A DNA stretch of 37,297 nt from an uncultured bacterium (GTDB lineage: Bacteria; Myxococcota_A; Polyangia; Polyangiales; Houyiibacteriaceae), in contig CALJYC010000046.1 of NCBI GenBank assembly GCA_937984275.1, positions 1-37,297 of the forward strand. Direction: 5' to 3'. Under the pieces are notes generated by a model, which had not been told where the DNA came from, ran no database searches, and worked only from the letters and a program-made list of their open reading frames with translations. Of the stretch, positions 2,868 to 37,297 are shown piece after piece. The translations under genes were made by a program, and so were the position numbers. Positions within the stretch are counted from its first letter, which is position 1; each line of letters starts with the position of its first letter.

Positions 2868-2960
2868 GCGCACCCGCAACTAGCGAAAACCAGGTCGAAA
2901 TTCGCCCATCCAACGCCGCCTTTTTGCGCTTTTTCGTTTGTGTAGGTGATCATACTACAT

Positions 2961-3827
2961 ATGACGACATCTGCAGCGGTCGCGGCGAGGATCGAGCAAC
3001 AGCCACGGGAGGCAGCCCCCTTTGTGAAGTGGGTCGGGGGCAAGGGCCGATTGCTGAGCCAGCTGCGACCGCTGCTCCCTTCAGGGGTAGAGCACATGCG
3101 CCACGTCGAGCCGTTCGTCGGCGGCGGCGCGCTCTTTTTTTCGCGTCGCCCTGGGCGAGCGCTGCTGACCGACATCAACCCGACCCTGGTGGCGGCGTAC
3201 TCTGCGATTCGTGACGACGTCGAAGGTGTGATCGTCGCATTGCGTGGGCTTGCCGGCCGCCACTCCAAAGAAAGCTATTACCAAGTCCGCGAGCGCTACA
3301 ACCAGGGTAGGCGTGTGTCCACGTCAAAGCGGGCGGCGATGTTCATCTACCTCAACAAGACCTGCTTCAATGGATTGCATCGCGTGAACCGCAAAGGCGA
3401 GTTCAACGTGCCGGTCGGGTCGTACAAGAACCCACGCATCCTGAACGAGGACGGCCTGCATGCAGCGAGCCGCGCCCTGAAAGACGCCCAACTGAAATGC
3501 GCACCGTTCGATGCACTGCTCGAAGACGCCAAGCCCGGCGACTTCATCTACTTCGACCCGCCCTATGAGCCAGTCTCCCAAACCGCCAGCTTCACGTCGT
3601 ACGCCCGCGACGGCTTCTCCCAAGAAGACCAGACGCGCCTACGCGACGTCTACAAAGCCCTCGACCGCCGAGGCTGCAAACTCATGCTCTCCAACAGCGA
3701 CGTCCCCTTCATCCGCAATCTCTACAGCACCTTTAACATCGACACCGTAGCCGCCCCCCGCGCCATCAACTGCGACGCCAAAAAACGCGGCAAAGTAAGC
3801 GAAGTAATAGTCCGCAACTACCAATAA
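2961..3827 (+). CDS. DNA adenine methyltransferase, D12 class (Dam-like)
   Basis: A 288-residue N6-adenine DNA methyltransferase. It has the alpha-class order: the AdoMet loop FVKWVGGKGRLL at residues 21-32, EPFVGGGALFF at 50-60, the helix with YLNKTCFNGL and the catalytic DPPYEPVS at 199-206 followed by FTSY. Dam recognises GATC, but whether this enzyme does cannot be read from sequence. I favour the ATG at 2961, which has AGGTGA at 2944-2949; a GTG at 2946 is possible but has no ribosome site. No restriction endonuclease is adjacent, so it is an orphan. The gene stops five bases before the palindromic element at 3832. Its last third is strongly C-rich on the coding strand (about 102 C to 44 G between 3541 and 3780), unlike its balanced 5' part; see the findings. 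Confidence 0.92.
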   Translation: MTTSAAVAARIEQQPREAAPFVKWVGGKGRLLSQLRPLLPSGVEHMRHVEPFVGGGALFFSRRPGRALLTDINPTLVAAYSAIRDDVEGVIVALRGLAGRHSKESYYQVRERYNQGRRVSTSKRAAMFIYLNKTCFNGLHRVNRKGEFNVPVGSYKNPRILNEDGLHAASRALKDAQLKCAPFDALLEDAKPGDFIYFDPPYEPVSQTASFTSYARDGFSQEDQTRLRDVYKALDRRGCKLMLSNSDVPFIRNLYSTFNIDTVAAPRAINCDAKKRGKVSEVIVRNYQ

Positions 3828-3831
3828 AAGT

Positions 3832-3893
3832 AAAAGGGGTCAGACCCCTTTATTAAAGGGTTAACCCTTTTGAAAAGGGGTCTGACCCCTTTT
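3832..3893. repeat. 62-bp palindromic REP-like element between convergent genes
   Basis: The two outer arms each carry a GGGGTC-GACCCC hairpin: GGGGTCAGACCCC at 3836-3848 and its reverse complement GGGGTCTGACCCC at 3877-3889. They flank a central palindrome AAAGGGTTAACCCTTT at 3855-3870. The whole unit is one inverted repeat centred on the TTAA at 3861-3864, with only positions 3852-3854 failing to pair with 3871-3873. It lies between dam (plus) and the MFS gene (minus), the classical position of REP/BIME elements, and ends in a T run on each strand, so it could also act as a bidirectional terminator. The TTAA supplies the stop codon of the MFS gene. A second copy of the arm is at 36986. Confidence 0.9.
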
Positions 3894-5186
3894 TCGTGCG
3901 TACGGGGGGAGGCCCCAGGCTGCGGTTGCGGCGGCGAGTGGGGCGAATACCGCGGCTATGCCGGACAAGGCGATGTGCAGGGTGTTGTCGCCACCTAGGA
4001 CGTGAGTTGTCAGCGCGCCGACTAGGGGCGGGCCCAGCCCCAAGCCGACGAGGTTTGCGGCAAACAATAGGAGTGCGGATGCGAGCGCTCGCATTTCGTT
4101 GGGTGTGACCGTTTGGAGGGCGGCGATCGCTGGGCCGAAGTAGCTGCTCATCAGGAACAGGATCGGAACCGCCATCCACAGAGCCCCCTGCTGTGTGGGC
4201 ATCAGAGGTCCGAGAATGCCGGGGACCAACCACAGCAACGCCGCCAGGACCACAACGCGCATGTTGGCATCGGGGTATCGATGACTCAGTCGCTCGGCCA
4301 AGAGACCCCCAGTCAACGCACCGACGCTTCCGGCGATGATGAAGATCCAGCCGAACTTGGGCCCAACTTGACTGGCCTCCGCGCCGAAGCTGCGGATCAG
4401 CATCTCGACGTACCAAGTGATCGTGCCATACCCGAGCACCGACAGCATCGAGACGCTTCCTAGGATCGATCCATAGAGTCGCGCGTGGGTGCGAAAATAC
4501 CGAAGCACCTCGCGAACCGGCACCCCTTCTCCTTCGGCGCGCGTTCGACCGTGACGCTTGGGCTCTCGGATCGTCCAGACCAACGCGCCGACGGCAAAGC
4601 CCGGAAGCCCCACCAAGATGAAGGTCAGCTGCCAGGGCTCGAGTGAACCGACGATGGGAAGAAGTAGCTCCGTGTCGCCGACGGCGCCTAACACCCAGCC
4701 GCCGATCATGTACGCCATCCCCCCACCGATGGTGATCCCCAAGGTGAAGATCGACATGGCGCGCGGCAGCAGCTTGGCCGGGAAGAGGTCGCTCAGCAGT
4801 GAGTGTGCCGGCGGCGACAACGCAGCCTCGCCCACGCCGACCCCCATCCGCGCCACGAACAAGCCACCAAAGCTCCGCACCAACCCGCACACGCAAGTCA
4901 TGACCGACCAAGACAACACGCCGACTCCGACGATCGTCCGCCGGCTCTTTCGGTCGGCTAAACGTCCAATAGGCAAACCGAGGACCGTATAGAAGAGCGT
5001 AAACGCCAGCCCATGCAGCAACCCGTATTGGAAGTCGGTGATTTCGAACGACTTGCGAATCGGCCCAACGAGGATCGCCATGACGTTGCGATCGATGAAG
5101 GACAGGATGTAGGCCAGCAGCAGAACAGTCAGCGCCCAGCGGGCACGGGGCCGACTGTCGGACAAATGAGCGGCGTCGGGTGTCAC
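3861..5186 (-). CDS. MFS transporter
   Basis: A 441-residue major facilitator protein with about 12 hydrophobic segments. The first helix carries YILSFIDRNVMAIL and the loop between helices 2 and 3 has GRLADRKSRR, the MFS signature between TM2 and TM3. The subgroup resembles the transporters often labelled spinster-like, but the substrate cannot be inferred. The start is a GTG at 5186; no in-frame ATG lies close by. The last dozen residues (RKRGQTPFQKG) are encoded by the palindromic element at 3832-3893, and the stop TAA is the centre of that palindrome, so the original C-terminus was probably different. The 3' 250 bases share the element-associated composition bias. It is separated from mlaF by a hexanucleotide repeat, so a shared operon is uncertain. 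Confidence 0.9.
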   Translation of the reverse strand: MTPDAAHLSDSRPRARWALTVLLLAYILSFIDRNVMAILVGPIRKSFEITDFQYGLLHGLAFTLFYTVLGLPIGRLADRKSRRTIVGVGVLSWSVMTCVCGLVRSFGGLFVARMGVGVGEAALSPPAHSLLSDLFPAKLLPRAMSIFTLGITIGGGMAYMIGGWVLGAVGDTELLLPIVGSLEPWQLTFILVGLPGFAVGALVWTIREPKRHGRTRAEGEGVPVREVLRYFRTHARLYGSILGSVSMLSVLGYGTITWYVEMLIRSFGAEASQVGPKFGWIFIIAGSVGALTGGLLAERLSHRYPDANMRVVVLAALLWLVPGILGPLMPTQQGALWMAVPILFLMSSYFGPAIAALQTVTPNEMRALASALLLFAANLVGLGLGPPLVGALTTHVLGGDNTLHIALSGIAAVFAPLAAATAAWGLPPYARKRGQTPFQKG

Positions 5187-5259
5187 GATAGCGGCCGCAA
5201 CCTAGCACCCCGCAGAGCCGAAGTGCCACGCCCCCCAGGGGGCCGAGCTCGCACCGCCG

Positions 5260-5325
5260 CTGACGCTGACACTGACACTGACACTGACACTGGCGCTGGC
5301 GCTGGCGCTGGCGCTGGCGCTGGCG
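5260..5325. repeat. hexanucleotide tandem repeat
   Basis: Eleven 6-bp units in two homogeneous blocks on the plus strand: CTGACG once, CTGACA four times (5266-5289), then CTGGCG six times (5290-5325), followed by a decayed CTGAAA. It lies in the 148-base gap between the MFS start and the mlaF stop, immediately 3' of mlaF. Blockwise homogenisation indicates slippage. It is a short-period microsatellite; a CRISPR array would need spacers, and there are none. Confidence 0.95.
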
Positions 5326-5334
5326 CTGAAAGCG

Positions 5335-8258: not shown

Positions 8259-9158
8259 ATGGTACGGGCTCAACAACGCCACACGGAGGCGGGGAAGCGC
8301 GCCGACCAGCGGGCCACGCGCGTGCTCTGGGGCGGCATGCTCGCCGGCGGCCTCATCGCGGTCGGCATCGTGCTAGCGCCTGGCTTCCGCACGCCGGCTG
8401 AAGAAACGGTTGCTCCGGTAGAGGTCACACCGGTCGAGACTTCGCGCCCCGCCGCGGCGCCAGCGGTCGAAGAGCTTCGGGTTCAAGTCATCCGCAAATA
8501 CCCGCACGCGACCGACGCCTTCACACAAGGACTCATCTGGTATCAAGGCGTCATGTACGAGAGCACCGGCCAATACGGGCAGTCCTCGCTACGCAAGGTC
8601 CGGCTCGAAGACGGCAAGGTGCTCGCCCAACGCAAATTGGAGTCCAGTTTTTTTGGCGAGGGCTTGGCTCGAGTCGACGATCGCCTGATTCAGCTCACGT
8701 GGCGTTCGGGTCTCGCCTTCGTATCGGACCTGACCAACCTCGAAAAACGCGCAACGCTCAGCTATTCCGGCGAAGGATGGGGCCTCTGTTACGACGGGAC
8801 GGCGCTGGTGATGAGCGATGGTTCGTCGATGCTGGAGTTTCGTGACCCCGATTCGATGGAGCTACTCGGCGAAATGAGCGTGTTGAAGAACGGACACCCC
8901 GTGCGCAAGCTCAACGAGCTCGAGTGCGTGGGCTCGGATATCTACGCCAATGTCTGGCAACGCGCCGAACTCCTCCGAATCGATCGCAAGAGCGGGCACG
9001 TCACTGCAACCATAGACGCGAGTGGATTGCTGTCACGCGTCGAAGCAAGGCGGGCGGACGTCCTCAACGGAATCGCGTACAGGCCGGAGTCGAAGACCTT
9101 CCTGCTCACCGGCAAGCTTTGGCCTCATGTGTTCGAGGTCGAGCTCGTGCCCCGCTGA
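8259..9158 (+). CDS. glutaminyl-peptide cyclotransferase (beta-propeller type)
   Basis: A 299-residue membrane-anchored protein. Residues 22-42 are a single hydrophobic segment followed by a Pro/Val/Thr-rich linker, so the catalytic domain is probably periplasmic. From about residue 75 it matches the plant/bacterial glutamine cyclotransferase family (PF05096), a five-bladed propeller converting N-terminal Gln to pyroglutamate: DAFTQGL, ESTGQYGQSSLRKV, GEGWGLCYDG with LVMSDGSS, LNELECV followed by IYANVW, then NGIAY and [13 protein letters not shown]. The ATG at 8259 places the membrane segment correctly. It overlaps the convergent methyltransferase gene by 34 bases at the 3' end. Confidence 0.9.
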   Translation: MVRAQQRHTEAGKRADQRATRVLWGGMLAGGLIAVGIVLAPGFRTPAEETVAPVEVTPVETSRPAAAPAVEELRVQVIRKYPHATDAFTQGLIWYQGVMYESTGQYGQSSLRKVRLEDGKVLAQRKLESSFFGEGLARVDDRLIQLTWRSGLAFVSDLTNLEKRATLSYSGEGWGLCYDGTALVMSDGSSMLEFRDPDSMELLGEMSVLKNGHPVRKLNELECVGSDIYANVWQRAELLRIDRKSGHVTATIDASGLLSRVEARRADVLNGIAYRPESKTFLLTGKLWPHVFEVELVPR

Positions 9159-10006
9159 TCTCGCGGGTACTCTCTCTCTTGCGCCTGGATCTCCGGCTCC
9201 CATTCCGCCAGCCGCGTGCGCATCGTCGCGATCGCGTCTGGACTTTCGTCGATGAGCACGAACCCCCGGCCAAGGCGCGCAGCGGCTTCACCAGTCGTCC
9301 CACTCCCGGCAAAGAAATCGAGGACCGTGTCGCCGGGTTCCGTGTGCACCTTGATGATGCGCTCGAGCACGCCGAGCGGCTTTTGCGTCGGGTACCCGGT
9401 CTTCTCTTTGCCGTTCGTCGGGACGATGGTGTGCCACCAGACATCGGTCGGAGTCTTGCCCCGAGCGGCTTTTTCTTTCCCCACTAGCCCGGGCGCCATG
9501 TATGGAATGCGATCCATCTCGTCGAACTGAAAGACGTAGCGCTTGGGGTCGAGGACGTACCAAAGGAGCGTGTCGTGCTTGGCCGGCCACCATCGCTTCG
9601 GCCGCCCTCCGAAGTCGTACGCCCAAATGATTTCATTGCGAAAACGATCCCTACCCAAGAGTCGGTCGAGCGCGACTTTCACGTAGTGCACTTCGCGGTA
9701 ATCGAGATGCACGAACAGCGACCCATCGGGGGTGAGGCACGGAAGCGCGGCTTCGATACGGCTCATCAGAAAGGGAACGTACGCCTCAAACTCATCTTCG
9801 TAGGTGGGGCTGTCGATCCGTTCGACGTCGTAGCGTCGGCCGCCGAAACCCTGTCGCTCACCCTCCTCGGCCGCCCGCACTTGCATCCGCTGGCGGGACT
9901 GCTTGCGCCCCGTGTTGAACGGCGGGTCGATGTAGATCAGCCGCGCGTGCTCGCGCGGGAGTGTCTGGAGGACCTCCAAGTTGTCGCCCTGTACGATTCG
10001 CTTCAC
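9125..10006 (-). CDS. site-specific DNA methyltransferase, beta class (N6-adenine or N4-cytosine)
   Basis: A 293-residue orphan methyltransferase in the beta-class order: the catalytic DPPFNTG comes first (near residue 27), then a central target-recognition section with [20 protein letters not shown], then [12 protein letters not shown] and the AdoMet motif [15 protein letters not shown]. The DPPF form is common in type III-like and CcrM-like adenine methylases, but the base and target site cannot be deduced. I chose the GTG at 10006 ([13 protein letters not shown]), where homology begins; an ATG at 10087 would leave only five bases to thiS and adds a basic stretch without homology. No endonuclease is adjacent. 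It converges on and overlaps the glutaminyl cyclase gene. The C-terminal tail (RGTSSTSNT) is probably not structured. Confidence 0.88.
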
Positions 10007-36335: not shown

Positions 36336-37297
36336 ATGAGCCCTGATCGCGTCGGCGGAAGGCGGAGGCCGGTTCGCATCGCCTTTGCCATAGTGCTCGC
36401 GCTGCAGGTCTTCTTGGCCGTGTGGGGCGTCGCCGATCAATGGACTCGCGGCCACAACGGCTGGAACGGCTCCGCGTATCACAACGCCGCGCGCAACACG
36501 TTGCGCTGGGACGTGCTGTTCCCGCTGCAGTATGAGACCGCCAACGTTCCCCCGAAAAGGGAGCAGCTCTACACGCACGCACCGCTCGCGCTGCACCTAC
36601 ACAACGTCGCCAGCGTGAAACTCTTCGGCGATCGCGAGGTGTCTATCCGGCTGGTCGCAGGCTTCTGGAGCGTGGCCGCCCTCTGCATGTTGTTCGCCGT
36701 GGTGCGACGCCTCTGGGACGATGCCCACGCCCTAGCCGCCTCCGCGATCTACGTCGCCCTCCCGATCAACGCGATCTACACCAACATGGCCAACCACTCG
36801 GCCGGCTTCATCTTCTGGTCCCTACTCACCCTCTACCTCTACATCCGAGCAATCCGCGCCCCACCCTGGCGCCGCCTGGACTTCGCCCTCTTCCTCGCCA
36901 CCTTCGCCATCGCTGCCAGCTGGGACTGGCCCGCCTATTACATCGCCGCCTGCATAGCCCTCCACTGGACCCACACACTCACAAAAAAAGGGGTCAGACC
37001 CCTTTTCAGAAGGGTAGGCGATAGCGTGGGCGCGGCGAGCCCCGTGGGCGATGCAAAGCATCGACTTTACGGGGTGGGGCAGGACAACCTGCCGCCGCAG
37101 GCGTCCGGCGAAAATTTCTCGAGGCTCGGGGTGTTTTGTGGGTGGGTGGTTCTTTTGTTTTTGGGGCATTTCGTGTTGGTGGAGGTGGTCACTGGGAATC
37201 TGGATGAGTTGACAGGGGCATTCAATACGCGGCGGGCGCTTTCTTGGGCGCGATTTCGGACGCACTTACTGGTGGTGCCACAGCTGATGTTCACGGC
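36336..37297 (+). CDS. membrane glycosyltransferase, GT39/ArnT-like (3' truncated by window end)
   Basis: An open frame of 320 codons running off the right edge without a stop. It starts with an ATG 33 bases after mcd. An N-terminal membrane segment (AFAIVLALQVFLAVW) is followed by a luminal loop with GHNGWNGSAYHNAARN, then several hydrophobic helices (VAGFWSVAALCMLFAVV, ASAIYVALPINAIYT, AGFIFWSLLTLYLYI, FALFLATFAIAASWDW). This order resembles dolichyl-phosphate-mannose or lipid-linked sugar transferases (PMT_2/ArnT). The donor is unknown, and the usual acidic residue in the first loop is replaced by His/Asn. From about residue 217 to 259 the frame reads through the second palindromic element without disruption, after which hydrophobic sequence (VVLLFLGHFVLVEVV) resumes. 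Codon use switches across the element from C-ending to G/T-ending. Confidence 0.75.
   Translation, partial: MSPDRVGGRRRPVRIAFAIVLALQVFLAVWGVADQWTRGHNGWNGSAYHNAARNTLRWDVLFPLQYETANVPPKREQLYTHAPLALHLHNVASVKLFGDREVSIRLVAGFWSVAALCMLFAVVRRLWDDAHALAASAIYVALPINAIYTNMANHSAGFIFWSLLTLYLYIRAIRAPPWRRLDFALFLATFAIAASWDWPAYYIAACIALHWTHTLTKKGVRPLFRRVGDSVGAASPVGDAKHRLYGVGQDNLPPQASGENFSRLGVFCGWVVLLFLGHFVLVEVVTGNLDELTGAFNTRRALSWARFRTHLLVVPQLMFT
36986..37110. repeat. second palindromic element with additional hairpins, inside a coding frame
   Basis: The left end is the same GGGGTCAGACCCC arm with flanking A and T runs (36986-37006). It is followed by a structured stretch. There is a nested stem with CCCCGT at 37040-37045 pairing ACGGGG at 37069-37074 around CGATGC/GCATCG at 37049-37063, then a hairpin GGCAGG-ACAA-CCTGCC at 37078-37093, and a weak GCCG/CGGC stem at 37094-37109. 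The right boundary is set by the end of visible structure and is uncertain. The element is transcribed and translated as part of the glycosyltransferase frame. Confidence 0.8.

Follow-up and report, generated by a model that had tools for sequence, protein, structure and literature searches.

Why does the base composition of the two DNA strands switch abruptly at a short palindrome between two genes? The question is raised by a stretch of 37,297 nucleotides, here called the window, which is contig C46 in the draft genome of an uncultured member of the Polyangiales (G000; 3.49 Mb, 397 contigs). An initial annotation had located a C-to-G switch of the plus strand at a palindromic element between a dam-like gene and an MFS transporter gene. 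The hand counts on which it relied proved to be exact, both for the surroundings (111 C and 112 G in 3061-3420; 42 C and 34 G in 4141-4260) and for the two biased flanks listed below. The sign of the switch, from C to G when read from left to right, is indeed that of a bidirectional replication origin, as had been pointed out.

2946..3827, plus strand: gene for a dam-like adenine methyltransferase of the D12 class (PF02086), with a stop codon directly ahead of the GGGG of the first core
3541..3831, plus strand: left flank of the first copy (3' part of dam), with A/C-rich third codon positions; 102 C and 44 G in 3541-3780
3832..3893, no strand assigned: double element, with the inverted hairpins AAAAGGGGTCAGACCCCTTT and AAAAGGGGTCTGACCCCTTTT joined by AAAGGGTTAACCCTTT
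3861..5186, minus strand: MFS transporter gene (PF07690); its open frame terminates within the element
3894..4140, plus strand: right flank of the first copy (3' part of the minus-strand MFS gene); 100 G and 61 C in 3901-4140
36336..37297, plus strand: PMT_2/GT39-like membrane glycosyltransferase gene, which holds the second copy in frame and is cut by the contig end
36700..36983, plus strand: A/C-rich flank of the second copy; 128 C and 56 G in 36700-36984, codons ending in C or A
36984..37015, plus strand: single element AAAAAAGGGGTCAGACCCCTTTTCAGAAGGGT, the second copy in the window, within an open reading frame
37016..37297, plus strand: G/T-rich flank of the second copy; 109 G and 61 C, codons ending in G or T, in the same frame as the left flank

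The element and its copies

The element consists of AAAAGGGGTCAGACCCCTTTT followed by AAAGGGTTAA. Its core in this genome is GGGGTCAGACCCC (TC type), and 104 cores were found. The double element is a near-palindrome of 62 bp with cores at 3836-3848 and 3877-3889, which folds as a single long hairpin when treated as RNA (-44.6 kcal/mol). The spacing of 41 bp between its cores is shared by the large majority of inverted doublets. Many contigs of the draft have an element at their end, and no Rfam family matched the window above the gathering score. Copy and context counts in G000 and in the congener G013 characterise the elements as high-copy palindromic repeats that are mostly extragenic and enriched at convergent junctions (41% versus 16%). 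Their hairpins are terminator-like, having a perfect G/C stem with A and T runs on either side, and hairpin and T-run adjoin stop codons. On the A-side, i.e. 5' of the strand reading CAG, the median distance between GGGG and the stop codon of genes heading towards the element is 8 nt, and 50 of the 81 readable stops nearby are TAA, compared with 18% across all genes.

Homologues of the glycosyltransferase gene are present in most congeners, mostly as open frames of about 570-607 aa. They lack the query residues of about 215-260, which correspond to the element plus a further repeat. This second repeat family, GCCCCGTGGGCGATGC...GCATCGACTTTACGGGGTG, occurs beside elements or alone (window 37030-37090; L054:2760-2840; L057:3000-3110; L064:3300-3380), and its copy in the window belongs to the segment inserted in frame into the glycosyltransferase gene. 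Intergenic tandem arrays of a hexamer, (CCAGTG/CACTGG)n, repeatedly adjoin an element arm (window 5256-5330; L020, L067, L071, L036). A longer multi-copy body (CGTCACACACGCCTCCGTACGTCGACTTCTAC...GGAGAACGGCTCGCGATGGGCAGCACAG...) is bordered by single elements at L021, L031, L037, L041, L055, L058, L065, L072 and L074, and perhaps forms a larger mobile unit together with them.

Strand composition around the elements

At the first copy, the G/T switch across 150+150 bp had a z-value of 4.0 relative to 68,559 element-free positions in the same genome, of which a fraction of 2.5e-4 showed a switch as large. The second copy reached a z-value of 4.2 relative to element-free positions. The A/T skew also switches at both copies, the left being A-rich and the right T-rich. 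At the second copy (36990), codon endings flip from C/A to G/T across the element within one open frame, which excludes a gene-end effect at this site.

The step in skew that the initial annotation had centred on the first copy is present at other copies as well. In the sampled flanks of 76 element sites, the left/right GC skew was -0.274/+0.227 at 0-50 bp, -0.161/+0.175 at 50-100 bp, -0.090/+0.085 at 100-200 bp and -0.047/+0.033 in the bin thereafter, and it was about zero from 400 bp onwards. The AT skew around these sites runs parallel, and the biased zone spans about 300 bp. On both sides, the strand heading away from the element is G/T-rich and the strand heading towards it is A/C-rich. 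The expected sign of the switch was observed at 61 of the 64 testable sites (sign test p=5e-15). The view that the bias lies mostly at third codon positions and does not reflect selection on the proteins was also upheld. It is strongest at these positions where, with genes called by our own codon model, the outward G-C skew in the first 50 bp was +0.52 in genes heading towards the element (baseline +0.08) and +0.38 in genes heading away from it (baseline -0.13). The switch amounted to +0.22, +0.28 and +0.29 in convergent, tandem and divergent settings, respectively. The skew is a DNA-level, mostly synonymous effect on unrelated genes, and it is independent of gene direction.

Three simple causes were rejected. 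Gene-end or terminator codon bias is contradicted by the finding that gene ends without an element show no third-position skew, and that convergent, tandem and divergent junctions without an element show no skew step. Transcription direction fails as a cause because divergent settings and genes heading away from the element show similar effects, and a general property of hairpins fails because hairpins other than the element show no step. It is therefore very improbable that the elements are ordinary intrinsic terminators accompanied by gene-end codon bias. They do resemble bidirectional intrinsic terminators in their stem, their A and T runs and their position behind stop codons, and the enrichment at convergent junctions would fit. 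However, a flank bias that is independent of transcription direction and absent from element-free gene ends and other hairpins is foreign to such terminators, and the concerted, species-specific core dialect described below would be left unexplained.

The third-position G/T fraction in the first 100 bp was about 0.79-0.81 on the A-side versus 0.54-0.64 on the other side in the main classes; the side difference in paired raw composition was weak (p=0.04 and 0.055). A side polarity around the element is thus likely but unproven. A search for specific flank motifs of the Chi-like or KOPS-like kind yielded nothing clear beyond composition. Anti-structure selection was rejected as well, because the folding of the A/C strand is no weaker than that of its dinucleotide shuffles (z of -0.33). 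This suggests that composition, and not foldlessness, is the target.

In the congeners, the core is GGGGACAGTCCCC (AC type), with about 157-158 copies in G013, 95 in G011 and 101 in G016. The exact TC core is rare in the rest of the genus, a few genomes excepted. A comparison of 284 genomes of the phylum showed repeated copies of it in this genus only. The comparison with G013, which like our genome and the other relatives is a draft, took in 1.6 Mb of that congener. Its elements show the same gradient (71 sites), with the expected sign at 58 of the 63 testable sites. Of the 20 G/T-outward switches ranked highest in a blind scan of these 1.6 Mb, 13 coincide with elements, compared with none of the top 50 switches in the opposite direction, and no chromosome-scale replication skew was seen in the same sequence. 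At 24 of the 33 mappable sites of our genome, G013 has an element at the orthologous place, often within 10-20 bp and with the locus-specific borders kept, reading AC...GT instead of TC...GA. G011, the closest of the relatives tested, likewise carries the AC core at places where our genome has TC. This distribution suggests that the lineage of our genome changed its core dialect from AC...GT to TC...GA in place. At shared sites, the skew in our genome is slightly smaller than in either AC relative. The comparisons of dialects and rates comprise 24-34 site pairs.

The core sequence does not bring about the skew as a general property, since 80 loci with the same core in GTDB genomes of other phyla have little or no skew. 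The core AAAGGGGTCAGACCCCTTT recurs in Olsenella, Faecalicatena, Clostridia, Planctomycetota and Gammaproteobacteria (L221-L300, GTDB genomes), where the palindromic arms are often extended and flank skew is mostly absent.

The dam-MFS junction holds the TC double element in our genome, a pair of AC hairpins in G011, a single AC hairpin in G013 and a degenerate core in G015; G017, G004 and G007 have no element there. Over the last 100 bp of dam, the C3-G3 skew was +1.00 in G000, G011 and G013 and +0.50 in G015, compared with +0.72 to +0.85 in the element-free G004, G007 and G017 and +0.17 to +0.71 in more distant, likewise element-free species. At this junction, the skew follows the presence of the element only loosely.

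Could the elements instead have settled at pre-existing skew switches? Skew does occur at some orthologous positions that lack an element, one example being the counterpart of the L040 site in G013. These few cases could represent either losses or an insertion preference and, since the elements are old at most sites, they may be losses. The gradient has its maximum precisely at the insertion point, the skew flips within one gene, and three sites with an element in G013 only (155515, 234166 and 438999) show no skew which, small as these numbers are, fits a skew gained after insertion. We therefore regard an insertion preference as quite improbable.

Substitution kinetics

The initial annotation had proposed that recurrent DNA synthesis or strand-exposed mutation starts at the element. 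Under such strand-polarised mutation, nicking or cruciform processing would start outward synthesis or leave the outgoing strand exposed, on which C-to-T and A-to-G changes would then arise by wobble misincorporation or by deamination of C and A. Much of the pattern agrees with this proposal: C and A are reduced and T and G increased on the outward strand, which is a replication-type asymmetry, the effect is greatest at third positions, it flips inside one gene at the second copy, and the three recent-looking insertions mentioned above are without skew. Like replication origins, the elements mark a C-to-G and A-to-T switch from left to right. Unlike origins, they have a biased zone of only about 300 bp, number about a hundred per genome and show no extra mutation, and the congener shows no large-scale skew in its 1.6 Mb.

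The substitution rates speak against added mutation. They were estimated between species with a pairwise two-state model at 4-fold sites, assuming stationarity, in 34 site comparisons. On the outward strand, the rate of M-to-K changes (A/C to G/T) was 0.42 within 100 bp of the element versus 0.32 far from it, a modest rise, and the rate of K-to-M changes was 0.12 near the element (90% range 0.08-0.17) versus 0.31 far from it, i.e. it was reduced to about 40%. The exchange rates between G and T and between C and G were unchanged near elements, the C/T and A/G exchanges were lower, and total synonymous divergence did not rise. Added mutation should raise this total and spare the reverse rate, and the observations are otherwise. 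Thus, the sign, the centring on the element and the synonymous, DNA-level action assumed in the initial annotation stood, but extra mutation was not supported. The kinetics lower the standing of polarised mutation, which we consider unlikely rather than refuted.

The pattern, in which changes against the bias are suppressed and no extra mutation is seen, looks like one of selection or biased gene conversion. If an old skew were simply decaying, the ancestral G/T fraction would have to be close to one, which argues that the force on flank composition probably acts at present. One candidate force is direct selection on composition, by which the inward strand would be kept A/C-rich for a single-strand loading protein (Rho on RNA, or a RecA/SSB-like protein on DNA), with the element serving as terminator or repair anchor. 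The kinetics fit weak selection of this kind, A and C do not pair with one another, the inward strand beside the element is weakly folded (-28 versus -42 kcal/mol per 120 nt), and a hairpin with a T-run next to a stop codon would suit a terminator. We nevertheless judge this explanation rather unlikely, because divergent settings and genes that point away from the element show a similar effect, because the upstream coding RNA is translated, which should block Rho, and because the flanks show no ordering beyond composition.

A possible mechanism and known repeat systems

Taking the established pattern, its independence of transcription, its conservation and its kinetics together, we infer a mechanism that we favour tentatively, without calling it probable. 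The element would be a REP/REPIN-like hairpin site, passed on vertically at constant positions, most of them immediately behind a stop codon, and read by a putative strand-specific factor, for which a hairpin-recognising HUH-type nicking enzyme is one candidate. This factor would repeatedly open a short tract outward from the hairpin, and polar exchange through a heteroduplex or gap would follow, in which mismatches are resolved with a strand bias such that G.T is favoured over A.C on the outgoing strand. G/T-outward alleles would thereby gain an advantage, as in biased gene conversion, and recurrent local exchange would help a new core dialect to spread to all sites. In favour of such polar exchange we count the skew in two dialects, the orthologous sites with a switched core, the suppressed reverse substitutions and the unchanged neutral classes. 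Against it we count that Y1 genes do not track the number of elements, that the predicted side dependence is partial and that a few sites are skewed without an element. It also counts against conversion that direct weak selection on composition yields identical kinetics.

At the level of the whole genome it is possible, if somewhat doubtful, that these elements form a hitherto undescribed system whose factor recognises a hairpin closed by a species-specific base pair; the CAG/CTG triloop would probably make this recognition strand-specific. The factor would impose a drive-like bias over about 300 bp and co-evolve with its sites, the complete set of which would have been switched in place in one lineage. 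A repeat that biases the synonymous codons of adjoining genes regardless of transcription would constitute a local, sequence-addressed force on the composition of bacterial genomes. With reverse changes suppressed and no extra mutation seen, the kinetics allow strand-biased gene conversion or selection at the level of composition to be tested in a bacterium, a rare natural opportunity. Sister species that differ by an in-place switch at about a hundred sites moreover pose the question of how a bacterial repeat family can exchange its recognition sequence throughout the genome while staying where it is.

Among known site systems, DNA uptake sequences (DUS/USS) share with the elements the species-specific dialects of a conserved site, the inverted pairs behind genes and a selection-like or drive-like maintenance. 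They differ in that they number thousands per genome and not about 100-160 (DUS numbers: PMC3630211), in that the elements are palindromic and have no known receptor, and in that DUS have no known flank bias. The ComEC family is present in 16 of the 19 genomes, but it is common and hence not diagnostic of uptake.

The elements are most readily compared with REP/BIME/REPIN sequences and their RAYT (TnpA-REP) proteins, since they are multi-copy extragenic palindromes with inverted doublets of fixed spacing that lie at the 3' ends of genes, supply stop codons and occur now and then inside genes. GTAG-type REPs have likewise been reported to provide stop codons (PMC3733652). In contrast to tagged REPs, the elements lack the GTAG/CGTC tag: near 184 cores, GTAG was found 4 and 3 times and CGTC 3 and 0 times (12 nt 5' and 16 nt 3', respectively). 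The tag has been described for two large REP super-families, and untagged families also exist (PMC3733652). A strand-specific reading of a perfect 8-bp hairpin with a 3-nt loop is known for the Stenotrophomonas TnpA-REP, which leaves a 3'-OH that could prime synthesis (PMC8266576). Unlike REP/REPIN with RAYT, the copy number of the elements does not track Y1 genes, and RAYT copy number was therefore rejected as a driver: the search for Y1 genes gave no hit in G016, in which the AGGGGACAGTCCCCT core is present in 101 copies. Neither of the two Y1 genes of G000 is near a core. On contig C95 of G012, a gene for a Y1 transposase (9134-9469) does lie between inverted AC-type cores at 8831 and 9563, and this unit (8831-9577) is suggestive of a RAYT-like unit of the present repeat family. 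The elements further differ from REP/REPIN in that their positions are conserved between species and their core was apparently changed in place. Skew as a general REP property was rejected, as 26 BIME sites tested in E. coli had no flank bias. In the open-access literature, we found no report of a flank strand bias at REPs, no description of such a bias around other repeats, and no match to the core strings.

Lastly, a gene for the mismatch-repair endonuclease MutH (PF02976, 4.9e-31; L024:2222-2938, minus strand) is flanked by two inverted elements, and the dam gene in the window likewise adjoins an element. The joint presence of Dam and MutH is unusual outside the gammaproteobacteria. Insertions of REPs at repair genes have been noted before (PMC3733652).
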